A DNA stretch of 64,000 bases, from positions 712,726 to 776,725 of the forward strand of contig UCHD01000004.1 in NCBI GenBank assembly GCA_900472175.1, in the 5' to 3' direction. The notes under the pieces are model-generated. The model did not search any database and was not told where the DNA came from. It was given only the letters and a program-made list of their open reading frames with translations. Positions 12,201 to 57,413 of the stretch are shown one piece after another. The first letter of the stretch is position 1; every line of letters starts with the position of its first letter. This stretch comes from Hyphomicrobiales bacterium. GTDB lineage: Bacteria > Pseudomonadota > Alphaproteobacteria > Rhizobiales > Rhizobiaceae. The position numbers were made by a program, and so were the translations under genes.

Positions 12201-12252
12201 GCCGCCCCTCTTTTCTCATTCTCTGCTGCCCTGGCTGCCTCTCCGGCTTGTC

Positions 12253-13230: not shown

Positions 13231-13239
13231 GAAACCTCC

Positions 13240-13965: not shown

Positions 13966-14244
13966 CGGCAGACGCACCCTGTCCTTACTCTGCGCTTTCC
14001 TTGGAAGCATGCTGAACCGGCTGTTTCACTAGCCCACACTCCCGTACCCGCACTGTTGCGCGGGTGTTGGCGGTAATATGCACCGTTTGCGTTTGGCTGC
14101 CAGCAAAAATCACCGGACGCCGCAAAAGCACAAGAATCAGCTGTGGATGCGACGCACATCTGCGCCATTTCACCCCATTTCATTCGTAACCGCCGACAGT
14201 TAAGATCGAACCCTCAACAGATACATGCACGGGAAGCGGACGCC

Positions 14245-39832: not shown

Positions 39833-40141
39833 ATGCAAACCCGCATCACCGAGGAAATCAGGCGTCTGAAGAAGTTGGTCGCCGACCTCGAACGGCTGGA
39901 GGCCGGTACCATCGAGTCGCCAGCGCTGATGGCAGCGCCCTGCCTGGATCAATGGATACACTCTTCGCGAAAAGTGCCGTGTCTGGAAGGCGTCGTCGAA
40001 GGGCATCCATCGCTACCCGACGGGCACCAGATTGCCACCAGCGAGGTCTACGCGCACCTCTACGCCGATGACGAACACTTCGTCCGCACGCTCAGCCGCT
40101 GGTATCGACTCGGCAATCCCAGACAGAGGGCGACGTCATGA
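39833..40141 (+). CDS. DUF6634-like small protein, 102 aa
   Basis: The protein has a helical N-terminus (MQTRITEEIRRLKKLVADLERLEAG), a middle LMAAPCLDQWIHSSRKVPCLEGVVEGHPSL and a C-terminal end VRTLSRWYRLGNPR, which match what I remember of DUF6634 proteins of Rhizobiales plasmids and islands. Function is unknown. AAGGAA lies 10 bases upstream of the ATG. The stop codon overlaps the AAA+/M41 protease start (ATGA), so the two proteins are made together and may interact. Confidence 0.65.
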   Translation: MQTRITEEIRRLKKLVADLERLEAGTIESPALMAAPCLDQWIHSSRKVPCLEGVVEGHPSLPDGHQIATSEVYAHLYADDEHFVRTLSRWYRLGNPRQRATS

Positions 40142-41982
40142 AACATCGAATGACCTCGGGAGCTTTCAAACAGGTGAGAAGGCGGCCCGGTTCCATGCTT
40201 GCGTATTTCCTCCTTCGGCGGGCACTGAAGCCGACCCGTCAGTTCCGAGGAGACGTCGGCGGGCTGTTGATCGTCATTGTTGACAAGCTTTGGTTCCCCC
40301 GTTTCGAACGCGCAGCCGAACTCCTGTTCTCCGGGCAGGCACGCGCGTTTTTCAACGCGGACACATCGATGCATCGGGTGGTGTCGAAGGCGTACGGTTC
40401 GAAGACGAAACTAGACCTCGATGTATTGTCTTATAATGCGCAGACGATCTTGCTGACCGACAACATCGAGGCGATCCCGCGCTCCATCCGGATGGCGGCC
40501 GACGCCACGGCGACCGCCGAGAAGCCCACCGTCCGGCTGTTGAATGCAGTCAGGAAGCTGGCGGGCAGACCTTGCCTTGACGATAGGACGGCAGCGGCCG
40601 TGGCCAGTCAAGACTGGGACGTTATCGAGGCGCTGCTCTGCCGGCACTCGCTTGCTGACATAACCTTCGACACCCGTCGTTCGACAGAGGATTCGGAGGC
40701 TTCCGAAGGACCTCGTCTCAGCCAGTTGCCCGGTTTCGAGCCAGCTCGGGAATGGGCGTCCAAACTTGCGACTGACCTGTCGTCATGGAGAGACAAGACG
40801 CTCGCGTGGTCGGCTTTGGACAGGGGCGCCCTTATCGTTGGTCCGCCCGGCGTCGGAAAGACCATGTTCGCCAAAGCGCTGGCCGCGGAGCTCGGCGTCA
40901 CGTTGATCGCGACGTCTGCCGGACGGTGGCAATCCGCCGGGGACGGATACCTTGGGAGCATGCTTCGCGCAATGCGTGAATCCTTTGACGAGGCACGGTC
41001 GAAATCTGCCGCGTTGCTGTTTATCGACGAGCTGGACTCGATCGGAAACCGCGAGCACCGGAGCAGCCGATACGCCTACTATGAGAGTCAGGTCGTCAAT
41101 TCGTTTCTCGAACTTACCGGCACAGCGGCCGACTGGCCCGGTGTAATTTTGCTCGCGGCCACCAACCGACCAGAGGACATAGAGCCGGCGATCCTAAGAT
41201 CAGGACGTTTCGAAGAGCACATCCAACTCGGTCTTCCTGCGCCAGAAGAGCGAGCCGCCATCCTTTCCTACCACCTCGGCGGACTGATGCCGGATTTGCT
41301 GTCGCCGCTGACGGATCAGCTCGAAGACGCCTCGCCGGCCGATCTCGAAAGGTTGGCGCGGGCAGCGAAACGGCGGGCGCGCGCGAACGGCCGGGACATC
41401 GAAATCGCCGACGTTGAATCCAGCATGCCGCCTTTACACAAACTCGATTACCCGTCGCTCCAGCGCATCGCGACGCATGAATGTGGGCACGCGATGATCG
41501 CGCTGACATCGGAGTTTGTGGACGTGGTGACCGTCAAAATCAACGACACTATCCTCGAAGGAAGTTTTCAGTCGGGTGGCCGCATGACGGGCGATATGAA
41601 GGACCATGTTCTGCCGACCGAGAAGTTTCTCCGGGCAAGGATTCGGACAGCGCTGGCGGGCATGGCGGCCGAAGACGTCGTTCTGGGGAATCGGTCGGTC
41701 GGGGGCTCGGCAACCCTTGGCTCGGACCTTGATGAGGCGACGCGGATCGCGACATGCATGATCGTGAGCTACGGGATGGGAGACAGTCCGCGCTTCGAAA
41801 TCGACTACCGTCGTGTAACCGAATCCTATCGGCCTCCGCCTCATCTCCGTTCTGAGATCGATCGCATCCTTCGGGAAGAGTGGGACAGTGCGAAGGACAT
41901 TCTGAGCAAACACAAGGACCGGCTGATTTTTCTGGCAGAGAAGCTGGTCTCCGAGCGGATGATGCGGATCTCTGCGACTTGA
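40138..41982 (+). CDS. Soluble FtsH-like AAA+ ATPase with M41 zinc-protease domain
   Basis: The 614-aa protein has: a unique N-terminal region (1-195) without the two membrane helices of FtsH; an AAA+ domain (about 196-380) with Walker A GPPGVGKT (235-242), Walker B LLFIDELD (293-300), sensor-1 AATNRPEDIEP and arginine-finger region RSGRFE; and an M41 protease domain with HECGH (447-451) and a third zinc ligand in LGSDLDEATR (D530 or D532). All ATPase and protease residues seem intact. The usual FtsH pore loop (FVG) is replaced by GDGYLG. It is coupled to a DUF6634-like protein. I infer a specialised protease of the island. Confidence 0.85.
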   Translation: MKHRMTSGAFKQVRRRPGSMLAYFLLRRALKPTRQFRGDVGGLLIVIVDKLWFPRFERAAELLFSGQARAFFNADTSMHRVVSKAYGSKTKLDLDVLSYNAQTILLTDNIEAIPRSIRMAADATATAEKPTVRLLNAVRKLAGRPCLDDRTAAAVASQDWDVIEALLCRHSLADITFDTRRSTEDSEASEGPRLSQLPGFEPAREWASKLATDLSSWRDKTLAWSALDRGALIVGPPGVGKTMFAKALAAELGVTLIATSAGRWQSAGDGYLGSMLRAMRESFDEARSKSAALLFIDELDSIGNREHRSSRYAYYESQVVNSFLELTGTAADWPGVILLAATNRPEDIEPAILRSGRFEEHIQLGLPAPEERAAILSYHLGGLMPDLLSPLTDQLEDASPADLERLARAAKRRARANGRDIEIADVESSMPPLHKLDYPSLQRIATHECGHAMIALTSEFVDVVTVKINDTILEGSFQSGGRMTGDMKDHVLPTEKFLRARIRTALAGMAAEDVVLGNRSVGGSATLGSDLDEATRIATCMIVSYGMGDSPRFEIDYRRVTESYRPPPHLRSEIDRILREEWDSAKDILSKHKDRLIFLAEKLVSERMMRISAT

Positions 41983-43704: not shown

Positions 43705-45165
43705 CTACGGATTGACCTTTTCCACATCTGGAAGCGCCCACGACTTATCGAAGAACGCTTCGGTCGGACCATAGAACCGGAAATACGCGAACCATCCCTT
43801 TTTGGGGTTCGTCTGCACCCAATTCGTTTCATGCCCCTCGGGAGCTGTTGGGCCGAAATAAACGTCAATTGATCCATCATCGTTTTTCACGATGTCCTCT
43901 TTCCGAGAAGAGATGTCAGGCCGCCCCTGCTCCGTGATGGGCATCTGGCGGGTGGCTTCGTCATAGGCCGTCACCGACCAGAAGCCCGTTGCTGGCGGAT
44001 TTGCAGGAACGTGCAGGCGGTAGTTGTTTTCGCCGGAAAGCCAGGCGTCGTTGGCATCCTTGTAGGAAGCGATATAGCGCTGACCCACTCCAGGCGTCTG
44101 CGTCAGCATCGCTTTGGAAATGACGACAGCCTCATAGAACCAGGCTGCTCGTTCATCGAGCTGATCGTAAGTGTTGGCTTTCTGATCGACGGAGACGACC
44201 AACGCGTGTTTCCAGTTGGTACCCTCCCAGAACGGAGGCTCGACCCGTTTGTCCGTGGTGTTCGCCTTCGCCATGGCCTGGCCGACGACCGCACCGTCCT
44301 CCAGCAATTTCTTCTGCCGCTCGTCGGGTTTGAAGGGTAGTCCCTTTTCGATGCCAAGGAACTTGAGCTGGGCCATAATGAAACGGTCGCGCTCCTCAAC
44401 GGGCTCCCGTTGGATGACTTCGTTCAGGCTGTCCCAATAGGGCATCCCCTCGGGTGGCATCTGGCTCCACTTGAGATCTCCGGCAGCCCGCACCGGCATC
44501 GGCTCGCCGGTGCCTTCCGTCGTCCAGGTGTACGTCTTGATAAGAGGGATCAACTCCGCGATAGCTTTTTCTTTATCGGCATCCAGCAACCGGAAGCCCG
44601 CAAGCACGTCGCGGCTCGTTGATTGCACGACAAAGTAGCCTTTCGCTTCAACCGGTCCGTATCCGGGTGGCAGGATCAGGTATTTGCCGCCCTTGCCCAT
44701 GTCCGGGCCGACGACGCCGAGATCAGCCATCACCCGCTGCCACTGGTCGAGCACCATACCGGCGATAAGGCCAGGTGGGACCACGACGACCATCGGTCCT
44801 GATTCCTTGAGGTCGATAAAGGTCGCAATGTAGGGCGTCGTGTAGTTTGGCGTCAGGATGCCAAGCTTCTCGGCGAAATCGAGATAAGAAAGCATCTCGC
44901 CGCTCTTCGCCTTGAAGACGTTGTAATGCGCCCTGCGCCACTCGTTGAGGCCGACGGCGGGCAGTCCCCAAAGATAAGCCTGGGATGCTCTCTGGAAATC
45001 CATCTCGTCATAGAGCTTGTTCACCGTTTCCTGCGACGGGTAGCCGCTTTGAAACGTGAGCTTTCCGATACGGGTGTCGAGCGTGGTCTCGGTCTCCTGC
45101 GATTGCGCTGGAAAGCCCATGAGAAGTGCGGTGGACAGGGCCAAACCAAAAGCTGTTTTGATCAT
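43705..45165 (-). CDS. Secreted DUF1254/DUF1214 protein, copy 1
   Basis: The 486-aa product has a signal peptide (MIKTAFGLALSTALLMGFPAQSQ), a DUF1254 region (LWGLPAVGLNEWRRAHYNV ... TPNYTTPYIATFIDLKESGPMVVVVPPG) and a C-terminal DUF1214 region (LHVPANPPATGFWSVTAYDEATRQ ... FGPTAPEGHETNWVQTNPKKGWFAYFRFYGP). These beta-rich proteins are periplasmic or exported; the biochemical role is not settled. The ATG at 45165 is chosen with GGAG upstream; ATG 45177 is in frame. It lies 107 bp after the gene at 45273. Confidence 0.85.
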   Translation of the reverse strand: MIKTAFGLALSTALLMGFPAQSQETETTLDTRIGKLTFQSGYPSQETVNKLYDEMDFQRASQAYLWGLPAVGLNEWRRAHYNVFKAKSGEMLSYLDFAEKLGILTPNYTTPYIATFIDLKESGPMVVVVPPGLIAGMVLDQWQRVMADLGVVGPDMGKGGKYLILPPGYGPVEAKGYFVVQSTSRDVLAGFRLLDADKEKAIAELIPLIKTYTWTTEGTGEPMPVRAAGDLKWSQMPPEGMPYWDSLNEVIQREPVEERDRFIMAQLKFLGIEKGLPFKPDERQKKLLEDGAVVGQAMAKANTTDKRVEPPFWEGTNWKHALVVSVDQKANTYDQLDERAAWFYEAVVISKAMLTQTPGVGQRYIASYKDANDAWLSGENNYRLHVPANPPATGFWSVTAYDEATRQMPITEQGRPDISSRKEDIVKNDDGSIDVYFGPTAPEGHETNWVQTNPKKGWFAYFRFYGPTEAFFDKSWALPDVEKVNP

Positions 45166-45272
45166 CACGTTCTCCATTGTTGTGAGGACGAAAGTTTTCC
45201 TCGTCCGAAGCGTCAATGAGTCTTGCTCGGGACTTTCCAAATTAGGCCCTAAACTCATAAACCAAGCGCATC

Positions 45273-45596
45273 TTAGACGGCCCGGATCTCGGAGACGACC
45301 TCATCGAACAGCCTAAAATACGCCCGTTCGAGTTCATCTGGGGATAATGAGAAAGCCGCTGCCGAACGAGGAAGGTTTAGTTCCTGTGCGGCCGACTTTC
45401 CGTCGTCGAGGCAGGCGGGATGGAGATCAGCAGCGGTCTCGAGGTCACCAGCGTTGCGCATGCCGTAGTCGGCAGCCCATAAGCAATAGATCAAGCGATC
45501 AAGGGGGGGCAGCGACGAATAATTCTCCGTCGCCATTTTTTCAATGACGCGCCCGCCTCTGTTCAAAAGCCATGACTCATTATCCTCGTCGAACAT
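45273..45596 (-). CDS. Hypothetical acidic protein, 107 aa, start possibly supplied by the IS end
   Basis: The product (MFDEDNESWLLNRGGRVIEKMATENYSSLPPLDRLIYCLWAADYGMRNAGDL...) seems a real protein of a family with 'YxSLxPxDRLIYCLWxADYGMRNAGDL'; I cannot name it. The predicted left inverted repeat of the neighbouring IS (GACTCAT, 45574-45580) lies inside its first eight codons, so the start codon and MFDEDNES may come from the IS and the original N-terminus may be lost. It is on the same strand as the DUF1254 genes. Confidence 0.6.
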   Translation of the reverse strand: MFDEDNESWLLNRGGRVIEKMATENYSSLPPLDRLIYCLWAADYGMRNAGDLETAADLHPACLDDGKSAAQELNLPRSAAAFSLSPDELERAYFRLFDEVVSEIRAV

Positions 45597-45661
45597 TGAT
45601 TATCCCCATTGGCCAACGATTTCTGTCTTTCGTCTTCCCGGAATCGTGATTCAGTATTGAA

Positions 45662-46027
45662 ATGAGCCGACACGATCTGACCGACTTGGAGTGGCGTATA
45701 ATTGAACCGCTCCTACCCAACAAACCGCGTGGCGTTCCGCGTGTTGACGACCGTCGAGTTATCAACGGTATTTTGTGGCGGTTCCGCACTGGCTCACCAT
45801 GGGCAGATGTTCCTGATCGATATGGTCCCTATACAACCTGCTACAATCGCTTTGTTCGATGGCGAAAGGCGGGTGTCTGGGATCACGTTCTACATGAGAT
45901 TTCCAAGGCTTTCGATGGCGATATCGTCATGATCGACAGTTCCTGTGTTCGCGTTCATCAACATGCGGCCACAGGAAAAAGGGGGATCAAAACGATGGCT
46001 GCATGGGACGTTCTCGTGGCGGCTTGA
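45662..46027 (+). CDS. IS5-family transposase, first ORF
   Basis: The 121-aa product has the DUF4096/IS5 N-terminal block (LTDLEWRIIEPLLPNKPRGVPRVDDRRVINGILWRFRTGSPWADVPDRYGPYTTCYNRFVRWRKAG) and the first catalytic Asp in VMIDSSCVRVHQHAA. It ends after TMAAWDVLVAA. The rest of the DDE domain is in the overlapping ORF at 46003; an A5/G5-rich stretch (GGAAAAAGGGGGATC, 45974-45988) is a candidate slip site. Confidence 0.85.
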   Translation: MSRHDLTDLEWRIIEPLLPNKPRGVPRVDDRRVINGILWRFRTGSPWADVPDRYGPYTTCYNRFVRWRKAGVWDHVLHEISKAFDGDIVMIDSSCVRVHQHAATGKRGIKTMAAWDVLVAA

Positions 46028-46419
46028 CCACGAAAATCCACGCGGTTGTCGATGCTGATGGCCGACCGATCCGTCTCGCTCTGACAGCCGGCCAAGCCCA
46101 TGATAGCCGCATGGCGGAGCCGATGTTGCAGACAATTGCCAAGGGCACGATCCTGTTGGCTGACAAGGCTTATGATACCAACGCTCTTCGAGAATTCACA
46201 AAGCAAAAGCAAGCATGGGCGAATATTCCGGTCAAAAGCAATCGCAACGAAAGCTTCCCTTTCAGCCCATGGGTTTATCGCCAGCGCAATCTCATCGAGC
46301 GTTTCTTCAGCAAACTCAAACAGTTCAGAGGTATCGCAACCCGCTACGACAAAGACCCGCTCAATTTTCTTGCTGCCGTCAAACTCGCAGCGGCGAGAAT
46401 TTGGATCAGATCGTTATGA
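46003..46419 (+). CDS. IS5-family transposase, second ORF (frameshift partner)
   Basis: The 138-aa reading has GRSRGGLTTKIHAVVDADGRPI, the second catalytic Asp in ILLADKAYDTNAL, and the C-terminal YRQRNLIERFFSKLKQFRGIATRYDK block with the catalytic Glu. Fusion with the first ORF by programmed frameshift gives the full transposase, usual for the IS427 group. Both parts look intact, so the IS may be active. Confidence 0.85.
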   Translation: MGRSRGGLTTKIHAVVDADGRPIRLALTAGQAHDSRMAEPMLQTIAKGTILLADKAYDTNALREFTKQKQAWANIPVKSNRNESFPFSPWVYRQRNLIERFFSKLKQFRGIATRYDKDPLNFLAAVKLAAARIWIRSL

Positions 46420-46428
46420 GTCTACGGC

Positions 46429-47925
46429 CTAAGGGAGCTTCACGACATCGTCCGGCTTCCAGGTCTGATCGAAGAATTCGACGCCTGTCCCGTAGAGGCG
46501 TAGCGCGGCCAGAAAGTTGCGGCCTTCGACGGTCTGAATCCAGTTGGATTCCGGCGCCTGCGCCGGTTTGGTCGGCCCGAAGAATAGGTCGACCGAGCCG
46601 TCATCGTTGGTCTTCACTTTGTTGAAACCATTGATCGACGGCATCAATTGCTCGGCTGATGTCATGGTGCCATCGGTGACATTGTAGGCCGTTACGGCCC
46701 AGAAGAGTGCTGCCGGGGGATGCGGCGGCAAGTGAAGCTTGTAGGACTTCGAGCCCTCAAGGAAATTGCCGTCAGCGTCACGTGCGGTAAACGGATATTT
46801 TGATCCGGCGTCCAGCGTGCGCATGACCATTGCCGGCGCCGATGAATAGGCGAACTGGAAATAGGAGGCGCGTTGAATGATGTCGAGATAACTCTCCTGC
46901 ATCCATTCTGCGGTAGCTCCGGCCCAGGTATTTTCGTACTGCCGGTCCTTGTAGTAGAGATTGCGCTTGTCCGGACGTCCGAGTTGCCGGCCTGCCAGGA
47001 TCATCTTGGGCGCAGTCTCGACGGCCTTTTGAAGAGCCGCACTTTGTTGGTCGCTGGGTTCAAACGGCTGTCCCTTGACGATACCGATGGAGGCGAGCAC
47101 GCCTCGCGTCACCGGGTCGATGGAAGCGACCGGCTCATAGTCGACGAACTCCTTGAGCTTCGTCCAGTATGAGCTTCCGGTTGGATACATCATGCTGATC
47201 GCCTTGCCGCTGCCATTTGGAAACTCCATAGGCCTGACGTCTTTTTCCGGAGCCCAGAGCGGATAGATGCGGGTCCGTTCGGCGTTCGCGACCGCAGGTG
47301 CCGGATCAGGGCCGCTGTCGCCTTTGCTCATGACTGTGCGGAAAAACAAGAATACGTTGTTCGTGGGGGACTTGAAGGCAAAATACCCTTTCGGGATTTC
47401 ACCATCGTAGTCCGGCGGCAGGAGGAGGTAGAGACCGCCCCGCGCCCTGTCCGGACCGTTCGCGCCCACGTCGGTTATGGTCCGCTGATAGAAGTCCGTG
47501 AACATGCCGATGACGTTCGCGGGCGCTGCAACGACAAGCGGGCCATCTTTTTTCAGATCGAGGTAGCTCATCGAGTAGATGACGTCGGCATTGGGGGTCG
47601 GCACCCAGGCCCGGCTGTCCATGCGATCCTTCCAGATCGGCAGCACGTTATATCCGCCGCCAAAGGTCGCTTCGGAGCCGTCGCGCATGCCGATGACGTT
47701 CAAGATCGGAATTGTCAGCACGTAGGCCTGAACAGCATTCTGATAAAAGAACTCGTTTCGAAGAGATTCCGCCTCCTCCTGTGGCAGCCAGTTTCCTTTA
47801 TTGATCTGCTCCATAAGGGGCGACGTTTTGGCACTCTGGTCCTGGGCCAGAACTGGTGTCATTGGGACTGTCAGGCCAACCAGAAGTGTTGCAACTGTCG
47901 TCAAGCATGCAGAGCGCATTTTCAT
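46429..47925 (-). CDS. Secreted DUF1254/DUF1214 protein, copy 2
   Basis: The 498-aa product has a signal peptide (MKMRSACLTTVATLLVGLTVPMTPVLA), a DUF1254 region (VLTIPILNVIGMRDGSEATFGGGYNVLPIWKDRMDSRAWVPTPNADVIYS) and a DUF1214 end (LHLPPHPPAALFWAVTAYNVTDG ... FGPTKPAQAPESNWIQTVEGRNFLAALRLYG). AAGGA precedes the ATG. The C-terminus is complete (DQTWKPDDVVKLP), so the IS adjacent to its stop did not damage it, but may separate it from copy 1. Confidence 0.85.
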   Translation of the reverse strand: MKMRSACLTTVATLLVGLTVPMTPVLAQDQSAKTSPLMEQINKGNWLPQEEAESLRNEFFYQNAVQAYVLTIPILNVIGMRDGSEATFGGGYNVLPIWKDRMDSRAWVPTPNADVIYSMSYLDLKKDGPLVVAAPANVIGMFTDFYQRTITDVGANGPDRARGGLYLLLPPDYDGEIPKGYFAFKSPTNNVFLFFRTVMSKGDSGPDPAPAVANAERTRIYPLWAPEKDVRPMEFPNGSGKAISMMYPTGSSYWTKLKEFVDYEPVASIDPVTRGVLASIGIVKGQPFEPSDQQSAALQKAVETAPKMILAGRQLGRPDKRNLYYKDRQYENTWAGATAEWMQESYLDIIQRASYFQFAYSSAPAMVMRTLDAGSKYPFTARDADGNFLEGSKSYKLHLPPHPPAALFWAVTAYNVTDGTMTSAEQLMPSINGFNKVKTNDDGSVDLFFGPTKPAQAPESNWIQTVEGRNFLAALRLYGTGVEFFDQTWKPDDVVKLP

Positions 47926-47997
47926 GGCGTGAATCCTTGGGCTGTTGAGTTGTCGCAGATCACCCTACGCAGTAGAGCGACATCCGTTTTTGACCGG

Positions 47998-49530
47998 TCA
48001 GTTGACCTTCTCGATATCACCTGGCTTCCAGCTTCCGTCCAGGGCGGCCTGTGCCGGAGCATAGAGCCGGAGAATGGCGAAGAAACCCCGTTCCGGGACC
48101 GTTGCAAGCCAGTTGCCTTCTTTCCCTTCAGGGGCCTTCGGGCCGATGTAGATGTCTGTACTGCCATCCGCGTTTTGTGCCGGTTTGTTCAGCTTGCCGA
48201 GAGATGGAAACGGCTGTCCGTTGTCCAGCCCAGAGGCATTCTCTGCCTCGTAGAGTGTAACGGACCAGAACAACTCGGCCGGGATATCTTTCGGCAAATT
48301 GACTTTGTAACTGCGTGCGCCGTCGAGCGCCTCGCCTTTAGAATCTTCGAACGCAATCATGTAGAACGCGCCTTTGCCCGGCGTCATCGAGACCATGCCA
48401 GGGCTGATCGAGTAATAATCAGTAAAGAACCAGGACCGAGCATCAAGCTCCCGGTACCCGCCATTCTCGACCAGGAAGCCGAGATCGATACCAGCATTCG
48501 GCCAGTGACCACTCAGATTGTTGATCGGGTTGAGCCAACGGCGGTCTTCGTAGACGCGAAAGTCGGCAGCACCGATGCCTTTTTCAAAGCCGGTGACACG
48601 GGTCATCTTATAGGCCGTCTTTGCAGCGGCATCGAGAATGGCGCGCATCTTTTCATCCGGAGCAAATGGCCGGTCCGTTGCGATTCCGATGCCTTCCAGC
48701 ATGCCGAGCCAGTCGGGATCGGCTAGGCCGGAACCTTCGACATCAAGAAGACTTTTAATCTGCTCGAAGGCGGCGATGTCCGAGCGCGGCAACATATTCA
48801 GCGACTTGCCGGAAGCGTCGGGGAACTCCATCGCCTTTGCGCTGTCTTCCTGTCCCAGAGGGTAGATCTTCGACTTTTTCATCAACTCAACGGCCGGCTC
48901 GATGTTGTCGAGAGACTGATAGAACGAGCGCAGGAAAATGAAGACGCTATTGGTTTGCGAGCGATAAACGTAATAGCCCTCCGGCACAGCGTCCTTGTAA
49001 CCTGGGGGCAAGATCAGGAATTTTCCGCCCTTGCCACCGTCAGGGCCCGGCAGGCCGACGTCACCGAAGAATTTTCCGCTGTCCTCGGGTATGGGGCGTT
49101 GCCAAAAATCAAGCAGGATGCCCTGCAATTTCTCCGGGGATTCGAACACCAGTGGCCCGGTTTGCTTCAAATCGACAAATGCCATGCCGTAGATGAGGTC
49201 CGAATTCGGCGTCGTGACATGGGTCTTTGGATCAAGACGCTTCGTCCAGATCGGCATGATGTTGTAGCCGGTGCCAAAAGCGTCCTCCGCTCCGAACTTC
49301 ATGCCAAGCGTATTGAGGAGCGGCAAAGCCCAGTAGTACGTCTGCGTCGCCCGCTGGAAAAGCAGTTCGTCCTTCAGTGTCTGTGCAGTCTCCGCCGTGG
49401 GGCGATTTTTCTCAAACGGGAGGTTGGCGAGGGCATCAAACCGCGACTGGTCAGCGCTTGCTGGGCTGAAGCCCCCCATTGTAAGGAAGGTGGCGGCGGC
49501 GAGGACTCTGAGGGAAAGGGCATATTTCAT
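47998..49530 (-). CDS. Secreted DUF1254/DUF1214 protein, copy 3
   Basis: The 510-aa product has a signal peptide (MKYALSLRVLAAATFLTMGGFSPASA), a DUF1254 region (WALPLLNTLGMKFGAEDAFGTGYNIMPIWTKRLDPKTHVTTPNSDLIYG) and a DUF1214 end (VNLPKDIPAELFWSVTLYEAENASG ... IGPKAPEGKEGNWLATVPERGFFAILRLYAP). AAGGAG nine bases before ATG 49530 decides this start over 49653. It lies 72 bp upstream of copy 2 and closely resembles it in layout, though not at sequence level in the middle. Confidence 0.85.
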   Translation of the reverse strand: MKYALSLRVLAAATFLTMGGFSPASADQSRFDALANLPFEKNRPTAETAQTLKDELLFQRATQTYYWALPLLNTLGMKFGAEDAFGTGYNIMPIWTKRLDPKTHVTTPNSDLIYGMAFVDLKQTGPLVFESPEKLQGILLDFWQRPIPEDSGKFFGDVGLPGPDGGKGGKFLILPPGYKDAVPEGYYVYRSQTNSVFIFLRSFYQSLDNIEPAVELMKKSKIYPLGQEDSAKAMEFPDASGKSLNMLPRSDIAAFEQIKSLLDVEGSGLADPDWLGMLEGIGIATDRPFAPDEKMRAILDAAAKTAYKMTRVTGFEKGIGAADFRVYEDRRWLNPINNLSGHWPNAGIDLGFLVENGGYRELDARSWFFTDYYSISPGMVSMTPGKGAFYMIAFEDSKGEALDGARSYKVNLPKDIPAELFWSVTLYEAENASGLDNGQPFPSLGKLNKPAQNADGSTDIYIGPKAPEGKEGNWLATVPERGFFAILRLYAPAQAALDGSWKPGDIEKVN

Positions 49531-49591
49531 GACATCGATCTCCTTGAACTCAGGCTTGGAGGTTTGGAACCTGTTGGCAGTGCCGCCGCCC

Positions 49592-49650
49592 GTGGAGAAC
49601 GTCCACTCTGGCGGTTGGGAACCGGAGAAAGGGTGAGCTTTCCGGTTCCC
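49592..49650 (-). other. Two stem-loops between DUF1254 copies 4 and 3
   Basis: GTGGA-GAACG-TCCAC (49592-49606) is followed by a perfect 10-bp stem GGGAACCGGA / TCCGGTTCCC (49617-49650, loop 14 nt). No T-run follows on either strand. They sit in the 145-bp gap of a same-strand gene pair, just before the copy 3 ribosome site, and may be attenuators or RNA-stability elements. Confidence 0.5.
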
Positions 49651-49675
49651 CACTCGACAGGGAAGTCACATATAG

Positions 49676-50722
49676 TCATTCAGGCTGGAGGGCTGGGGTC
49701 TTGTATGTGCCATCGACCACAGAGTTTCCAGGCATGTAGACGCGGAAGGCCGTCCAGAAGGGTGCGGTGGGAATGATCAATTCGTTGGCGTGACCATTCT
49801 TGCCAAACTCGCCCTCAGGCACGTAGTAAATGTCGAAGGTCTTGCCGTCGGAATTGAGCTTGAGTTCGGTGTTGCTGATCGTCGAGCCTTGATCGGTCTT
49901 GAGGTACTGATCATCCCCGTAGACCGTCACCGAATAGAATCCGAGTTTGGGATCGACCTGTTCCGGCACATTATAGGTGGCCTTGTAGGTCTTTCCCATC
50001 TGAACGTCGTGCTTGTCAGTTAGGTAGACGGCATCTTTGTCGGGGAGCAAACCGGTTGCGATGGCGACGCCACGGTTCCTTGCTTCCAGCGAAACAGGAT
50101 GCTCCACGGTTCCCATAGTCCCTTTCACCCCTTCCTTCTGGGCTTCGGCGACATAACCTTCACGCACTTTTCCAAAGGACGCCATATCCCAGTTCGTCAC
50201 CTTGAAACTTTTTGGCTGATACCCATTCAGGTACTCGATCTTCAGTGCGTCTTGATACTGATTGACCTTTTTGACGTCCTCCGGGTCTTTGTCGTTGATC
50301 TGCATGCGGACGTTTGCATAGAAGAAGTCCGTGGATTCTGACGCAGGGATCACGTAGCGACCGGGACCGTAGAACACCTTGTAGGTGACATGGTCGTGGT
50401 TCATCACGTGGAGTGACATGTATCGCCCATCGTTTTCCGGCAGCGTGATCGCAACGTCGCCACCGCCGTCGAGGACGGCGAAGGAATAGACCGTGTCGCG
50501 GTTCATGAGCGGCGCAGGCTGCTCGGACAGAGCCATCGTCTTACGGTGATGGTGCCAGGTGTTGGTGGCGCCTTGCTCGACTTCTTTTTCCATCGCAAGG
50601 TCCGTCATCGCGAGTGCAAAATTCTGTTCGGTTACGATGACCGGGCTTTCCTGCGCGACAGCCACACCGGAAACCAACGCATAGGATAGCAAGAAGACGC
50701 TCAGGTAGCGCTTGGACTTCAT
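49676..50722 (-). CDS. Secreted DUF1254/DUF1214 protein, copy 4 (short form)
   Basis: The 348-aa product has a signal peptide (MKSKRYLSVFLLSYALVSGVAVA), a reduced DUF1254 region (WHHHRKTMALSEQPAPLMNRDTVYSFAVLDGGGDVAITLPENDGRYMSLHVMNHDHVTYKVFYGPGRYVI) and a DUF1214 end (PKLGFYSVTVYGDDQYLKTDQGSTISN ... APFWTAFRVYMPG). It is shorter than the other three. AAAGGA precedes the ATG at 50722. It is the first gene of the minus-strand series. Confidence 0.82.
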   Translation of the reverse strand: MKSKRYLSVFLLSYALVSGVAVAQESPVIVTEQNFALAMTDLAMEKEVEQGATNTWHHHRKTMALSEQPAPLMNRDTVYSFAVLDGGGDVAITLPENDGRYMSLHVMNHDHVTYKVFYGPGRYVIPASESTDFFYANVRMQINDKDPEDVKKVNQYQDALKIEYLNGYQPKSFKVTNWDMASFGKVREGYVAEAQKEGVKGTMGTVEHPVSLEARNRGVAIATGLLPDKDAVYLTDKHDVQMGKTYKATYNVPEQVDPKLGFYSVTVYGDDQYLKTDQGSTISNTELKLNSDGKTFDIYYVPEGEFGKNGHANELIIPTAPFWTAFRVYMPGNSVVDGTYKTPALQPE

Positions 50723-51210
50723 GGGGTAATCCTTTTCCGTTCGCCTTGCCGCAATAGAAAGCGCAGCATTTGCGTTTCGTTGGTTCAGACAATAGAGCGC
50801 CATCGCCGTGGGTGAAGTACGTAACGGTAACAAGCGCGTAAATTTTACAACCAAACCACGACAGAATTGCTATTTGGGGAGAGCGGCACGATGCCGGAGA
50901 CAAGTTGTATGAAGCCTTGCCCGACCGTGGTCACATCCACGCGTCGAAGGATCGGACGCCCGCTCGTTCGCCAACAGATTGTATTTCGGACCGTACCATC
51001 GAACGAGTTCGGGCATGCCCCAACCGTTGACCGACCGCATCTACGAGCCAGAGCTGGCTGTGTGAACGACTAAAACGAAGGCGCTAAGCGGAAACGATTA
51101 CCGAACGCCATTGGCTGCCATCGAAACGGCGGATTCCATTTCCCACTCGTTGAAATCCGGCCTACCATTCCATCGACGGTTTCAGCCGTCTGTCGAAGGA
51201 GGTTACTCGC
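50723..51210. other. Divergent region between DUF1254 copy 4 and the sulfatase
   Basis: The 488 bp hold no trusted gene; an ORF of 68 codons (50867-51073) has no ribosome site or family character. A motif GGCGCTAAGCGGAAA is found at 51080-51094 and again at 60787. The right end has the sulfatase ribosome site AAGGAGG (near 51197). The promoters of both cargo blocks should be here. Confidence 0.45.
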
Positions 51211-52830
51211 ATGGCAGATAAGCAGACCAACCAGTTCCAAAAAGAAATTCAGCATGGTCTCAGCCGGCGCGATCTATTGATTGCAAGCACGGCGTTGGCC
51301 GCTACGGCTGCGACATTGTCGAGGCCAACGGCCGCTTTGGCGCAGCAATCGACAGCCTCCGGAGCAGCTTCGGGAAAGCCCAACATCCTCATGATTATGG
51401 CGGATGACATCGGCTGGTTCAACGCAAGCATCTACAATCGCGGCATGATGGGGTACCGGACACCGAACATCGACCGCATCGGTAACGAAGGCGGATTGTT
51501 TACCGACTGGTACGGGGAGCAGAGTTGCACGGCGGGACGCGCGGCCTTTATCACGGGCCAGTCTCCAATACGAACGGGCCTAACGAAGGTCGGACTGCCA
51601 GGCGCCGATATAGGCCTACGGGCCGAGGATCCGAGCGTCGCCGAATTCCTCAAGCCGCTTGGCTACGCGACGGGGCAGTTTGGCAAGAACCATCTGGGCG
51701 ACAAGGATGAGTTCCTTCCCACGAACCACGGCTTCGACGAGTTCTTCGGCAACCTCTACCACCTGAACGCCGAAGAAGAGCCAGAGAACCCTGACTATCC
51801 GAAGGACCCCGAGTTTGCCAAGCGGTTCGGCCCGCGTGGCGTGATCAAGGCGTCGGCGGACGGAAAGATCGAGGATACCGGCGCACTCAACACCAAGAGA
51901 ATGGAGACGGTGGACGAGGAGTTCCTGGGCGCGGCGCTCGATTTCATCGACCGGCAGCATAACGCCGACAAGCCTTGGTTCTGCTACTTCAACCCGAGCC
52001 GTATGCATGTATGGACCCATCTAAAGCCCGCTTCGAAAGGCAAGACAGGACTTGGCGTCTATGCCGACGGCATGGTGGAGCTCGACGGCTATGTCGGCCA
52101 ACTGCTTCAGAAGCTCGATGATCTGGGAGTTGCGGAGAACACCATTGTCGTCTTCACGACCGACAACGGCGCGGAAGTGATGTCGTGGCCGGATGGCGGC
52201 AACACGCCCTTCCGAGGCGAGAAGGCAACAAACTGGGAAGGCGGCTATCGTGTGCCGATGGTGATCCGCTGGCCCGGAACGATCAAACCTGGCACGACCT
52301 TCAACGAGACTTTCTCGCATTACGATCTTGTTCCAACTTTTGCAGCCGCAGGCGGCGATCCGGATGTCGTGGACAAGTGCCTGAAGGGCGGTCAGTTCGG
52401 AACCAAGACCTTCAAGGTCCACCTCGACGGCTACAATCTCATGCCGTTCTTCAAAGGCGAGGTGAAAGAGCCTCCTCGAAACGAGTTCGTCTACTGGAAT
52501 GACGACGGCCAGCTTGTCGCCATTCGCTACAACGAGTGGAAAGCAGTATTCCTGGAACAGAACCACGAGAGACTGGGTGTCTGGATGGGCCAGTTCGAAG
52601 AACTGCGACTGCCGAAGCTGTTCAACCTCCGCTCCGACCCTTTCGAGCGTGGGGACCAGTCCATCCTCTACGACAGGTGGGTCGCGGAACGAGCCTTCGT
52701 ACAGGTTCCGCTGCAGGCGTTTGCTGCCAAATGGCTAAGCAGCTTCAAGGAATTTCCGCCGAGGCAGAAACCTGCGAGCTTTAACCTGGATAAGGTTGTC
52801 GAGCAGTTGTCTTCGCCCGCGGCGAGATAG
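51211..52830 (+). CDS. Tat-exported arylsulfatase-type sulfatase
   Basis: The 539-aa protein has a Tat signal (LSRRDLLIASTALAATAATLS, twin Arg at 19-20) and the sulfatase fold. The metal-binding pair is in IMADDIGWFN (D65, D66). The formylglycine motif C-x-A-x-R is C106-TAG-R110 in QSCTAGRAAFITGQSPIRTG, so it needs a formylglycine-generating enzyme, which is not in this window. The second metal site is D318-N319 in FTTDNGAE. It hydrolyses sulfate esters in the periplasm; substrate unknown. AAGGAGG upstream of ATG. Divergent from the DUF1254 cluster. Confidence 0.88.
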   Translation: MADKQTNQFQKEIQHGLSRRDLLIASTALAATAATLSRPTAALAQQSTASGAASGKPNILMIMADDIGWFNASIYNRGMMGYRTPNIDRIGNEGGLFTDWYGEQSCTAGRAAFITGQSPIRTGLTKVGLPGADIGLRAEDPSVAEFLKPLGYATGQFGKNHLGDKDEFLPTNHGFDEFFGNLYHLNAEEEPENPDYPKDPEFAKRFGPRGVIKASADGKIEDTGALNTKRMETVDEEFLGAALDFIDRQHNADKPWFCYFNPSRMHVWTHLKPASKGKTGLGVYADGMVELDGYVGQLLQKLDDLGVAENTIVVFTTDNGAEVMSWPDGGNTPFRGEKATNWEGGYRVPMVIRWPGTIKPGTTFNETFSHYDLVPTFAAAGGDPDVVDKCLKGGQFGTKTFKVHLDGYNLMPFFKGEVKEPPRNEFVYWNDDGQLVAIRYNEWKAVFLEQNHERLGVWMGQFEELRLPKLFNLRSDPFERGDQSILYDRWVAERAFVQVPLQAFAAKWLSSFKEFPPRQKPASFNLDKVVEQLSSPAAR

Positions 52831-53658: not shown

Positions 53659-54024
53659 ATGGACGAGCGTCAAGCCCTGGCCAGTTTTTCAGCCCTCTCT
53701 CAAGAAACCCGACTCGGGATTGTCAGGACGCTGGTTGTAGCCGGGCCAGAGGGGCTAGCCGCCGGCTCGATCGCCGAACGCATGGGCGTCTCGCCGTCCA
53801 ACCTCAGTTTTCATCTCAAGGAACTGGATCACTCTGGTTTGATCAGCCAGCGACGTGAATCCCGCTCCATCGTCTATACGGCAAGCTACAACGCACTCGC
53901 CGAGCTGGTAAAATTCCTGATGGAGGATTGCTGCTCTGGTCACCCGGTCATCCGCGCATCGGTCGAGCGATCGGACGGATGCTGCGCGCCGCAAGAGGCC
54001 CTCGGGGACGCGACCTTTGCGTGA
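53659..54024 (+). CDS. arsR: ArsR-family arsenic-responsive repressor, unit 1
   Basis: The 121-aa winged-helix protein has the ArsR HTH (about residues 30-75: LAAGSIAERMGVSPSNLSFHLKELDHSGLISQRRESRSIVYTASY). The C-terminal cysteines in MEDCCSGHP and DGCCAPQ are likely As(III) ligands, as in the ArsR type with C-terminal Cys pairs. It is divergent from DUF6428 and overlaps the MFS gene start by 8 bp. It should repress this unit until arsenite binds. Confidence 0.88.
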   Translation: MDERQALASFSALSQETRLGIVRTLVVAGPEGLAAGSIAERMGVSPSNLSFHLKELDHSGLISQRRESRSIVYTASYNALAELVKFLMEDCCSGHPVIRASVERSDGCCAPQEALGDATFA

Positions 54025-55222
54025 AACAAGAATTCCTGCGGGCATCGTTTCCGCGTTGGGACTGACCCAGATCATCGGCTACGGCACGCTCTACTACTCG
54101 TTTTCGATCCTCGCTCCGGGGATGGCCGCTGATCTTGGCCTAAGCCTGGAATGGGTGTTCGGCATCTTCTCGATATCCCTCTTCGTCGGAGGCCTGTCGG
54201 CAACCTTCATCGGCCGCCATATGGACCGTGTCGGCGCGGCAAGCGTCATGACGGCCGGCTCTGCGCTTTCCGCCGCAACGCTTGTACTTTGTGCCTGGTC
54301 GCCGTCCGTGGCCGTCTTCGCTCTTGCCATCGTCTTTCTCGAAGTGGCGTCTGGGATGGTTCAGTACCAGGCCGCCTTCGCCGCTTTGGTGGAAAGCGAC
54401 CCCAAAACGGCGGCGCGGAGCATCACCTATCTTACGCTGATAGCAGGGTTCGCCTCGACGATCTTCTGGCCGATTTCCGCAGCTCTCACGGGCTATCTGT
54501 CGTGGCGGGAGATCTACCTCGTTTTTGCCGCGCTCAACCTTCTTGTCTGTATGCCGTTGCACGTTTGGATCATGCGCGTCGGGCGGCTTGCTTCGAAAGC
54601 GCAAGTTGTCAGACCGCGGGAGGTCGTCGCCGGTGCGCTCGAACCTGAGACGCGTCGCAGGGGTATGCTTCTCGTCTCCATGGCGTTTGCGCTTCTGGGC
54701 TTCACGCTGGCCGCCATCCTCGCTCACATGGTTCCGATGCTGACGGCGCTCGGCCTTGGCACCGCAGCGGTCGTGATCGGAGCGCTGTTCGGGCCTGCTC
54801 AGGTCCTGAGCCGCCTGATCAACATGATCTTCGGGACGAGCCTTTCGCCACCGGCCTTGGCCATCCTGTCGGCCGTGCTTATCGTCGCCGGAGTCACGAT
54901 CCTCGGGATCTCAGGAGGATCGTTGCCCGGCGCCGTCGCTTTCGTGGTCTGTCTCGGCCTTGGTTCCGGCATCAACAGCATCGCCCAGGGCAGCCTGCCC
55001 CTGTACCTGTTCGGAAGCGAAGGCTACGGGGCGATCACGGGGAGGATGGCGGCCGCTCGACTCGCCGTCGGCGCCGCGGCTCCGTTTGTCTTTTCCACCG
55101 CGATGGAGAACCTCGGTATCGGTGTCGCCCTGTTCGCCAACGCCTTGCTTGGCGTTCTCGGTATTCTGTTGTTCGTCGCCGTCGCGACATCGTCGAGACG
55201 GCCCGTGACGGCGACGAACTAA
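54017..55222 (+). CDS. arsK: MFS transporter of the arsenic unit (ArsK-like)
   Basis: The 401-aa protein has about twelve membrane helices and MFS features (GRHMDRVGAASVMTAGSALSA as the A-like loop). It starts with TTG inside the arsR 3' end. Position right after arsR and the 'TQIIGYGTLYYSF' N-terminus fit the MFS arsenite/antimonite efflux group called ArsK. The family is known to contain such carriers; the specificity is inferred from context. It ends 4 bp from the arsH stop on the opposite strand. Confidence 0.7.
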   Translation: MRETRIPAGIVSALGLTQIIGYGTLYYSFSILAPGMAADLGLSLEWVFGIFSISLFVGGLSATFIGRHMDRVGAASVMTAGSALSAATLVLCAWSPSVAVFALAIVFLEVASGMVQYQAAFAALVESDPKTAARSITYLTLIAGFASTIFWPISAALTGYLSWREIYLVFAALNLLVCMPLHVWIMRVGRLASKAQVVRPREVVAGALEPETRRRGMLLVSMAFALLGFTLAAILAHMVPMLTALGLGTAAVVIGALFGPAQVLSRLINMIFGTSLSPPALAILSAVLIVAGVTILGISGGSLPGAVAFVVCLGLGSGINSIAQGSLPLYLFGSEGYGAITGRMAAARLAVGAAAPFVFSTAMENLGIGVALFANALLGVLGILLFVAVATSSRRPVTATN

Positions 55223-55226
55223 AACC

Positions 55227-55937
55227 TCAAATAGATTTCAGCGAGACCCGCTGCTCGAGCTTGGCGGCATCCTCGACGCGCTCGCTGTAACGATCGGTCA
55301 GGTAGGAGGACGCGTCCCTTGTCAGGATGGTGAACTTCACCAGTTCCTCGCAGACATCCACGACACGGTCGTAATACGACGACGCCTTCATCCGACCGTC
55401 GGCGTCGAACTCCTGATAGGCTTTTGCGACGCTGCTCTGGTTCGGAATCGTGATCATCCGCATCCACCGGCCGAGGATACGCATCTGCCCAAGGGCGTTG
55501 AAGGACTGCGATCCTCCTGACACCTGCATCAAAGCGAGTGTCCGTCCTTGCGTGGGGCGCACCGAACCGACGGCGAGCGGTATCCAGTCGATCTGCGATT
55601 TCATCACGCCGGTCATCGCCCCGTGACGCTCCGGACTGACCCAGACCTGGCCCTCGGACCACTCGGACAGCGCGCGCAATTCCATCACCTTCGGATGCGT
55701 TGTGGCGGACTCGTCCGGTAGCGGTAGCCCCTTGGGATCAAAGACCCTGACATCGCAGCCGAGGCGTTCGAGCAGTCTTCGAGCCTCATGAGCAAGAAGC
55801 CGGCTGTAAGACACCTCCCGAAGCGAACCGTAGAGGATCAGGATGCGTGGCTTGTGCGTCGAGAAGGCTGGCCGCAATGCTTCGAGATCGGGCTGATGGA
55901 GGTGATCCTCTTTGAGTGCCGGGAATGTCTCAGACAA
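55227..55937 (-). CDS. arsH: ArsH NADPH-dependent FMN reductase / organoarsenical oxidase
   Basis: The 236-aa flavodoxin-like protein has [44 protein letters not shown] at the start and [22 protein letters not shown], both typical of ArsH, which oxidises trivalent organoarsenicals. It is the last gene of the large minus-strand ars operon and overlaps arsC by 8 bp. Confidence 0.9.
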
Positions 55938-56352
55938 TGCGCTTGCCTTCCCGATCTACAACCTGTTCGCCATCTTCCTTGGTGAAGGGACCCTTCAAGG
56001 TGTCGGGCAGGATATCGAGCACGGCTTCGGACGGCCGTGCGAGCCTCGTGCCGAGGGGCGTCGCGACGAACGGTCGATTGATGAGGATCGGCTCCTTCAG
56101 CATTGCGTCGAGCAGTTGGTCGTCTGTCAGGGTCGGATCGTCGAGGCCTAGGTCCGCGTACGGCGTTCCCTTTTCGCGGATCGCCTGCCTGACCGTCAGT
56201 CCGGCGTCCGAGATCATCTTGACGAGTTCCTCGCGCGTCGGCGGGGTCTTCAGATACTCGACGACGGTTGGCTCGATGCCCGCGTGTCGGATAATGGCCA
56301 GGGTGTTGCGCGAGGTCCCGCAATCGGGGTTGTGATAGATGGTGACGTCCAT
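55930..56352 (-). CDS. arsC: Glutaredoxin-type arsenate reductase ArsC
   Basis: The 140-aa protein begins [38 protein letters not shown], with the catalytic Cys in NPDCGTSRN, and has [27 protein letters not shown] with the conserved R-P. It reduces arsenate to arsenite using glutathione/glutaredoxin. ATG 56352 is the family start; the long ORF to 57117 is an artefact in the acr3 gene. It lies 2 bp after acr3. Confidence 0.92.
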
Positions 56353-56354
56353 GA

Positions 56355-57413
56355 TCAGGTCCTTGTCATAGCGGTGTTTCGGGAGACGGCGGGCGCAGCT
56401 TCGTACCAGCCCTTGGAGCGGTTCACGATCCAGACGACCGAGAGCATCACCGGGACCTCGATGAGGACGCCGACCACGGTCGCCAGCGCCGCCCCGGACT
56501 GGAAGCCGAAAAGGCTGATAGCGGCGGCGACAGCCAGTTCGAAGAAGTTGGATGCTCCGATCAGCGCCGAGGGGCCGGCAACGCAATGGCGTTCCCCGGC
56601 AATCCTGTTGAGGATATAGGCGAGTCCGGAATTGAAATAGACCTGGATCAGGATCGGAATAGCCAGGAGGGCGATGATCGTCGGCTGCGCGATGATCTGC
56701 TCCCCCTGGAAGCCGAACAACAGCACCAGCGTCGCCAGAAGCGCGACAAGCGACAGCGGCTGGAGCCTCGCAAGAACGGCGTCGAGCGCGCGCTCCGTGC
56801 CACCAGCCTTGAGGCGACCTCTGATGATCTGAGCGATCACCACCGGCACGACGATGTAGAGCGCGACCGAGATCGCCAGCGTGTCCCACGGCACGGTGAT
56901 CGCAGAAAGCCCAAGGAGCAGCCCGACGACGGGTGCAAATGCGACGATCATGATGGCGTCGTTCAGCGCGACCTGTGAAAGCGTGAACAGTGGTTCGCCC
57001 TTGGTGAGATTGCTCCAGACAAACACCATTGCCGTACAAGGCGCTGCCGCCAGGATGATCAGGCCCGCAATATAGGAGTCGATCTGGTCGGCGGGCAGAT
57101 ACGGCCGGAACAGCCATCCCACGAATAGCCAGCCGAGCAGGGCCATCGAGAACGGCTTGACCATCCAGTTGATGAAGAGCGTCACCCCGATGCCGCGCCA
57201 GTAGCTACCGACTTTGGAGAGCGAACGGAAGTCGATCTTCAGGAGCATCGGGATGATCATCAGCCAGATGAGGATCGCCACGGGAATGTTCACCTTGGCG
57301 ATCTCTGCCAAACCGATGGTCTGGAATACACCGGGCATCAGATGACCGAGAGCGATCCCGACGACGATGCACAGGCCGACCCATACGGTCAGATAGCGTT
57401 CGAACATGGACAT
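56355..57413 (-). CDS. acr3: ACR3-family arsenite efflux permease
   Basis: The 352-aa protein has about ten membrane helices with the Acr3 blocks GLIILAAAPCTAMVFVWSNLTKGEP (with the essential Cys) and NPLQTPILIQVY-like VALLAIPILIQVYFNSGLAY. It exports arsenite produced by the two ArsC enzymes. It shares its first base region with the end of the other arsC (1-bp overlap). Confidence 0.92.
   Translation of the reverse strand: MSMFERYLTVWVGLCIVVGIALGHLMPGVFQTIGLAEIAKVNIPVAILIWLMIIPMLLKIDFRSLSKVGSYWRGIGVTLFINWMVKPFSMALLGWLFVGWLFRPYLPADQIDSYIAGLIILAAAPCTAMVFVWSNLTKGEPLFTLSQVALNDAIMIVAFAPVVGLLLGLSAITVPWDTLAISVALYIVVPVVIAQIIRGRLKAGGTERALDAVLARLQPLSLVALLATLVLLFGFQGEQIIAQPTIIALLAIPILIQVYFNSGLAYILNRIAGERHCVAGPSALIGASNFFELAVAAAISLFGFQSGAALATVVGVLIEVPVMLSVVWIVNRSKGWYEAAPAVSRNTAMTRT

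Follow-up and report, generated by a model that had tools for sequence, protein, structure and literature searches.

Among proteins that carry the DUF1254 and DUF1214 domains (Pfam PF06863 and PF06742), the closest described relatives of the genes considered here are VPA0735 and VPA0106 of Vibrio parahaemolyticus, whose structure entries are named "hypothetical" or "uncharacterized"; the title of a Burkholderia entry, 6ans, likewise gives no function. The genes in question are four DUF1254/DUF1214 genes that lie beside a sulfatase gene in a 64,000-nucleotide stretch, hereafter the window, from a Hyphomicrobiales bacterium of the Rhizobiaceae (assembly GCA_900472175.1, contig UCHD01000004.1, positions 712,726 to 776,725). 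In the passages of the literature retrieved for this family, neither an experimentally tested function nor a link to sulfatases was found, and to that extent the statement of an earlier note on this DNA, that the family has no agreed function, holds. One paper predicts from a homology model that a PF06742 protein of Malassezia (MGL_833) is a glycosyl hydrolase, and the same source states that the Chlamydomonas orthologue rises on sulfur depletion (PMC4634964). In the passages seen of two other papers, labels are attached that are not tested there: Caulobacter CC_2518 appears as "phosphatidylserine decarboxylase (DUF1254)" (PMC3751524), and putative HNH nucleases are listed with DUF1254 domains (PMC6299218). 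The reported down-regulation of Synechococcus anL05 (COG5361) was left unused, as the decrease was shared by 28 of the 29 changed pANL genes (PMC13125312, in the part available), and the sulfur-starvation passages of PMC8049743 and PMC3235179 name no DUF1254 gene.

We propose, with a probability of roughly 40%, that the window block is an exported set for the utilization (scavenging) of sulfate esters, carried on island-like DNA, and that its DUF1254/DUF1214 proteins handle either the substrate or what desulfation leaves of it. The earlier note had suggested a periplasmic pathway for one substrate. A shared process is favored because the pairing of DUF1254 genes with sulfatases recurs in the same genome, in DUF1254 regions of other genomes and around homologues of the window sulfatase; the restriction to one substrate goes beyond these data.

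Results

The DUF1254/DUF1214 block and its divergent sulfatase

All four minus-strand open reading frames (ORFs) between 43705 and 50854 score above the Pfam curated cut-offs for both domains, gene 4 being the weakest match (Table 1), and they match no other Pfam family. Each has a signal-peptide-like N-terminus once its start is corrected, signal peptides and start sites alike being judged by eye. Pairwise identities of 17-36% agree with the earlier description of these proteins as divergent, and point to old paralogues rather than to a recent amplification. The same description had four exported proteins standing in a row; family and export signals (by eye) fit it, but only genes 4, 3 and 2 are contiguous, followed by an insertion sequence (IS) and a 107-aa ORF and then by gene 1.

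The sulfatase carries the twin-arginine translocation (Tat) motif SRRDLL, and its residues C106-R110, D65/D66, K159, H161, D318/N319 and K338 line up with human arylsulfatase A, much as the earlier note had it in calling the gene a divergent Tat formylglycine sulfatase. We take the C-x-[AP]-x-R rule for formylglycine formation, and the metal and substrate roles of the aligned residues, to apply here. Judged by the sequence of its domain, formylglycine motif and active site, the protein is a class I sulfatase. Its score against the choline-sulfatase model TIGR03417 is 85.4 bits, below the equivalog cut-off of 433.45, and that against the NCBIfam arylsulfatase model, 81.3 bits, is far below the cut-off of 481. 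An activating formylglycine-generating enzyme (FGE) is represented in the genome by one PF03781 match (263.7 bits), on contig C16.

Because the sulfatase is divergent, it and the DUF1254 block are not one operon. A single transcription unit of block and sulfatase was considered and is ruled out by this orientation, with its 488-bp gap, and by the separation of gene 1 through the IS and the ORF. No consensus promoter was found between the divergent genes, the promoter scan as a whole doing no better than shuffled sequences.

Table 1. Coordinates of the block, the sulfatase and the surrounding features in the window
Feature	Position	Strand	Evidence and remarks
Gene 1 (w1), DUF1254/DUF1214, predicted exported	43705..45165	-	DUF1214 118 bits, DUF1254 68.2 bits; ORF runs to 45258, likely start ~45165 (MIKTAFGLALSTALLMGFPAQSQ) from signal peptide and upstream sequence
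107-aa ORF between gene 1 and IS	45273..45596	-	ORF; no Pfam match
IS5-family (IS869-like) element	45674..46431	+	Stretch aligned to IS869-like copies, termini unmapped; two transposase frames that overlap, 45662-46027 and 46003-46419
Gene 2 (w2), DUF1254/DUF1214, predicted exported, VPA0735-like	46429..47925	-	93.9 and 95.4 bits; start at 47925
Gene 3 (w3), DUF1254/DUF1214, predicted exported	47998..49530	-	101.9 and 105.2 bits; ORF runs to 49653, corrected start ~49530 (MKYALS..)
Gene 4 (w4), short DUF1254/DUF1214, predicted exported	49676..50722	-	DUF1254 33.7 bits (cut-off 22.2), DUF1214 27.8 bits (cut-off 25, narrow); ORF runs to 50854, corrected start ~50722 (MKSKRYL..)
Intergenic region, gene 4 / sulfatase, divergent	50723..51210	.	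Coordinates; 488 bp
S1-type sulfatase, predicted Tat-exported, CTAGR at C106	51211..52830	+	PF00884 180.1 bits
Tyrosine integrase	36539..37867
AAA + peptidase M41 protein	40138..41982
ArsR-type regulator	53659..54024
ArsK exporter (arsenite)	54017..55222		588.8 bits
Putative further arsenic genes	55227..57413		By eye only
Further transposase	59024..60700

Recurrence of the pairing

The genome's 12 DUF1254 matches are spread over four loci, and it also has 17 matches to sulfatases, some of them partial. On contig C8 (34 kb), four DUF1254 genes and three sulfatases lie within about 14 kb; two AraC regulators and an outer-membrane-type protein are encoded there too. This locus includes copies of genes 2 and 4 (91% protein identity each; 86% and 83% at the DNA level), and the first of its sulfatases is 57% identical to that of the window. 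The mixed arrangement is present twice in this genome, partly by way of copies of the same genes. The remaining two DUF1254 loci, both pairs, have no sulfatase match within the 18-19 kb around them. As a side observation, contig C19 (15.6 kb) has two sulfatase matches with a partial third between them (10312-14439).

Among 199 genomes searched in this order, DUF1254 matches occur in 103 and sulfatase matches in 161. From 124 match rows among the matches listed we took 99 regions, each spanning up to 20 kb about a DUF1254 gene, leaving out the rows of the window genome and sixteen short-frame rows (a few short ones stayed, so that the selection is imperfectly consistent), and searched them with a profile built on nine of the sulfatases that the window genome encodes. 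A sulfatase was found in 14 of the 99 regions, where 2.48 would be expected from each genome's sulfatase count and size; counted by genome, the figures are 12 of 54 against 2.39. None of 200,000 simulations reached 14 regions, the highest value being 12. The expectation uses sulfatase counts listed to about 11 per genome, multiplied by 1.5 for genomes with 10 to 19, and a candidate count of 23 for genome G165. Three of the 14 sulfatases lie 2.1-2.4 kb from the DUF1254 gene, two lie farther off and are convergent with it (L043, 3.8 kb; L112, 7.7 kb), and that of L065 matches only in part and contains an internal stop. In control regions 60 kb away (40 of 74 planned), sulfatases were absent (0/40 against 14/99; Fisher 0.006).

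The reverse count started from homologues of the window sulfatase (61-93% identity) in the GTDB species set, the best 80 of 152 being kept, which gave 79 loci. DUF1254 lies within 10 kb on either side in 15 of them (L121, L125, L136, L147, L152, L154, L160, L163, L165, L173, L176, L180, L183, L184 and L186), as a partial frame in L173 and L180. Going by record titles, seven of the 15 (L147, L160, L176, L180, L183, L184 and L186) are presumably from outside the Alphaproteobacteria; positive taxa include Chryseolinea, Taibaiella, Steroidobacter, Lysobacter, Stenotrophomonas and one planctomycete bin. The earlier note had staked its proposal beforehand, in part, on the pairing being found in other genomes, and it is, in several phyla.

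When nearest pairs within 600 bp from both sets were pooled with those of the window and C8 (n = 17), 13 were co-directional, three divergent (the window, L032 and L183) and one convergent (L186). The co-directional excess lends weak support to a link, neighboring genes being often co-directional anyway. Locus L032, from another family, shares the layout of the window, its DUF1254 genes, of both long and short type, being divergent from the sulfatase. A candidate fusion of DUF1254 and sulfatase, the 1475-aa frame at L184:2697-7121, was rejected: it comes from one metagenome bin, of a planctomycete, has an internal signal-peptide-like stretch before the sulfatase part, and more likely represents two genes with no visible stop between them.

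The paralogues also keep company among themselves. Locus L088, again from another family, has a side-by-side triad of relatives of genes 1, 2 and 3 (75%, 76% and 62% identity), and at least two local-profile matches were found in 34 of 103 DUF1254 loci, a few of these being split frames. The joint retention of distinct paralogue classes suggests a set that functions together, with the sulfatase as an optional partner.

Several observations weigh against the proposed tie. The majority of regions lack the partner, whether one starts from DUF1254 (85 of 99) or from the sulfatase (64 of 79). No sulfatase match was found in the 20-kb region of the L088 triad, which lies near an apparent gyrA (by eye). 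The window pair is divergent, unlike most close pairs, and no FGE gene lies near the window sulfatase, the single genome copy being on C16. When the comparison is confined to the same contigs, sulfatases occur in 3 of 40 DUF1254 regions and 0 of 40 controls, which is not significant, and contigs shorter than 70 kb account for 7 of the 14 positive regions against 13 of the 85 others; clustering of accessory genes is a possible cause, because such contigs could supply no control. A clade of DUF1254 proteins dedicated to sulfatases was sought and is unsupported, the positives being scattered on the tree: the 21 sulfatase-adjacent members among 135 proteins require 18 changes, against a mean of 19.97 in shuffles, 6 of 100 of which were as low. 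The higher share of sulfatase-adjacent members among short proteins (9/32) than among long ones (12/103; p 0.047) is too weak to use. Finally, a Pfam scan of 80 neighbor proteins (78 of 157 candidate ORFs, the nearest being chosen, plus two from L200) gave no family specific for sulfate or sulfonate uptake among the 25 commonest of 72 families. The tight co-localization claimed in the earlier note is recurrent but looser than it had appeared: besides the L088 set, all but two, L121 (91%) and L125 (86%), of the nine closest homologues of the sulfatase (L120-L128) have no DUF1254 neighbor.

On these grounds one could envision two kinds of exported catabolic genes, the DUF1254 set and the sulfatase, that have nothing to do with each other but share plasmids and islands and travel together. 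The contents of the window would suit this, since an integrase, an AAA/M41 protein, an ArsR regulator with an arsenite exporter, the IS and a further transposase are found along with them, and so would the matched control, the short contigs and the frequency with which the two genes are found apart. It is harder to square with 14 regions against 2.48 expected over the genome-wide sulfatase density, a number that no simulation attained, with pairs that are close and mostly co-directional (13/17), or with the recurrence in Bacteroidota, a planctomycete bin and Gammaproteobacteria. We consider such hitch-hiking a serious competitor, close behind the sulfate-ester proposal, given an optional link and a weak matched control.

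Neighboring genes and the surrounding DNA

Local profiles in the mixed sets comprise FGE-type proteins (PF03781; seed, 253.7 bits), a Phenol_MetA_deg channel (172.6 bits), AraC, DUF3604 and PAP2. Loci L092 and L045 have the order FGE-sulfatase-DUF1254 on one strand; L065 has FGE-sulfatase-DUF1254-DUF1254-channel, also on one strand, with the sulfatase frame broken. An Agrobacterium tumefaciens AF1/95 plasmid carries an arylsulfatase, an alpha/beta hydrolase, a transporter and three DUF1254/1214 genes in 11 kb, and Rhizobium rhizogenes pColt5.8b has two DUF1254 genes, an alpha/beta hydrolase, an arylsulfatase, MoxR, DUF58, DUF4381 and two VWA genes on one strand. Annotated DUF1254 plasmid regions of Pukyongiella, R. 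leguminosarum Ta1k, Ruegeria THAF33, Pseudomonas putida and Bosea are without a sulfatase. Sinorhizobium meliloti 2011 encodes a 75% homologue of the window sulfatase, and several plasmids of S. meliloti are listed with relatives of DUF1254.

An AraC gene is present in 39 of 99 DUF1254 regions against 3 of 40 controls (19 of 40 regions on the same contigs), and the AraC-type protein is likely a local regulator of the DUF1254 genes; in some loci it is divergent from the first of them. The outer-membrane-type channel (10/99 against 0/40; same contigs, 2/40) and a 225-aa exported-looking family with no Pfam match (L089:7767-8444 and homologues; 15/99 against 0/40; same contigs, 7/40) are likewise enriched, and FGE is found in 6 of 99 regions against 0 of 40 controls, which is not significant. 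The 225-aa family, DUF3604, PAP2 and AraC give no clue to the substrate. As to the halogenated compound that the earlier note had entertained, no dehalogenase was named among the neighbor genes scanned, and the broad HAD superfamily accounts for three of the 80 proteins, which come from other loci; this part of the proposal was dropped.

A MoxR AAA+ ATPase/DUF58/VWA gene set lies in the region of 11 of the 79 sulfatase loci (L124, L126, L129, L134, L138, L144, L145, L149, L154, L157 and L167) and also in L091, L200 and L251; in L251 it forms one co-directional row with DUF1254 genes. A MoxR relative 3 kb from the C16 FGE gene is 77% identical to the L251 MoxR. Among the literature matches listed, none mentions MoxR. 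Sulfatases might depend on the set for help with maturation or metal loading. The DUF1254 proteins themselves might be helpers that fold, load with metal or anchor the sulfatase and do not handle its substrate, a view to which the MoxR set (11/79 loci around this sulfatase type) and the FGE-family genes of neighboring sets lend some color. That 64 of 79 sulfatase loci do without DUF1254, and that the L088 set does without a sulfatase in its region, makes a helper role very improbable.

The IS matches the IS5-family transposase model NF033580 with both of its frames (129.8 and 162.2 bits; cut-off, 110), and the single IS placed within the block by the earlier note is thus accounted for. Its DNA is 84-88% identical to listed copies on plasmids of Agrobacterium and relatives, and the genome has one full copy. 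The aligned stretch extends to the stop codon of gene 2; the element apparently sits at or in the end of that gene, because DNA similarity between gene 2 and its C8 copy starts only at 46436. The wider surroundings, from 36539 to 60700, are island-like (Table 1). Two records of 4-5 kb labelled as Listeria phage (OR847259.1 and OR848596.1) encode a DUF1254-like protein of 28.6% identity and are perhaps host DNA filed as phage.

Fold and conserved residues

A predicted model of gene 2 (predicted local distance difference test, pLDDT, 85.6) matched VPA0735 (3vb9 and 2p3y) with Z-scores of 44.9 and 42.7 over 445 and 438 residues at 27-28% identity, VPA0106 (3u07) with 26.0 and Burkholderia 6ans with 15.2; the model of gene 4 (pLDDT 47.4) was of insufficient quality for such a comparison. 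Sequence-profile searches gave E-values of 1e-117 for VPA0735 and 8e-54 for VPA0106. Gene 2, the one gene of the four with a usable model, is predicted to have a VPA0735-like fold. Across 138 aligned proteins some polar residues are near-invariant: R in 136, Y in 135 and N in 131, and four more within the DUF1214 half (Y, N, R, Y), each in 129 to 132. In gene 2 the conserved positions are N112, D114, Y117, R196, Y414, N461, R476 and Y478. They may form a binding or catalytic site, as is suggested by their being kept in exported proteins about 20-37% identical to gene 2 (one, from Steroidobacter, is 75% identical).

The glycosyl-hydrolase model published for a PF06742 protein (PMC4634964, in the passages seen) raises the prospect that DUF1254/DUF1214 proteins are glycoside hydrolases, degrading a sulfated polysaccharide or glycan together with the sulfatase. 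Carbohydrate-binding modules do appear among the low-ranking matches of the gene 2 model, which involve its C-terminal beta-sandwich only. These matches have Z-scores of about 4.4 to 6.2, the level of common arrangements and below what the tool treats as meaningful, with no glycoside hydrolase standing out. No enzyme family, glycoside hydrolases included, came up in the fold search with a convincing Z, an absence that is no proof of a different fold, and neither a glycoside hydrolase family nor SusD is among the 25 commonest of 72 Pfam families in the 80 neighbor proteins. We regard this alternative as improbable.

Discussion

The sulfate-ester proposal can be put as a sequence of steps. A hydrophobic or sugar-linked sulfate ester would enter the periplasm, and the C16-encoded FGE would turn the sulfatase cysteine into formylglycine, enabling the enzyme to take sulfate off the ester. 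The DUF1254/DUF1214 proteins would bind or hydrolyze the same compound or its desulfated product, with different paralogues for different members of a single substrate class, and the likely gain would be sulfur, perhaps carbon. As to the reaction of these proteins, we infer it only from the conserved polar residues (Asn, Asp, Tyr, Arg) and from secretion.

The sulfatase itself is ordinary; the interest lies in a possible sulfur role for a large family without an agreed function. DUF1254 is common in the order, structurally solved and often exported, its function being untested in those parts of the literature that were found. The links to sulfatases, FGE-type proteins and the channel, together with the algal response to sulfur depletion as given in the passage seen, provide a concrete functional hint, if a modest one, that the family helps cells to scavenge sulfur. 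The Chlamydomonas statement, as far as that source was seen, is independent of the neighborhood data and agrees with them in direction. Whether DUF1254/DUF1214 proteins constitute a widespread class of secreted sulfur-scavenging enzymes, deployed as multi-paralogue sets from bacteria to green algae and often with a sulfatase and FGE, is a larger claim, which we hold to be rather unlikely.

These properties invite comparison with several known systems. VPA0735 and VPA0106 have the same two-domain fold as that predicted for gene 2, over nearly its whole length. MGL_833 of Malassezia and its Chlamydomonas orthologue belong to the same Pfam family as genes 1-4 and are predicted to be secreted; according to the passages seen, they differ in being eukaryotic and, in Malassezia, mostly a single gene, with a glycosyl-hydrolase role that is a model-based prediction. 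With class I (S1) arylsulfatases such as human arylsulfatase A (1auk and others), the window sulfatase shares the CTAGR motif and the metal and substrate residues, and its best solved match is PDB 7aj0 (E 1.1e-57); it differs from them in being bacterial and Tat-exported, and in being known here by its sequence alone. Gene sets of sulfatase and FGE offer a last parallel: by hand count, 17 of the 79 sulfatase loci have a PF03781-type protein at a distance of up to 10 kb, and five of these 17 (L152, L154, L163, L165 and L184) also have DUF1254. The window departs from such sets in that its FGE is encoded on the distant contig C16 and in that a multi-paralogue DUF1254 block is present beside the sulfatase.

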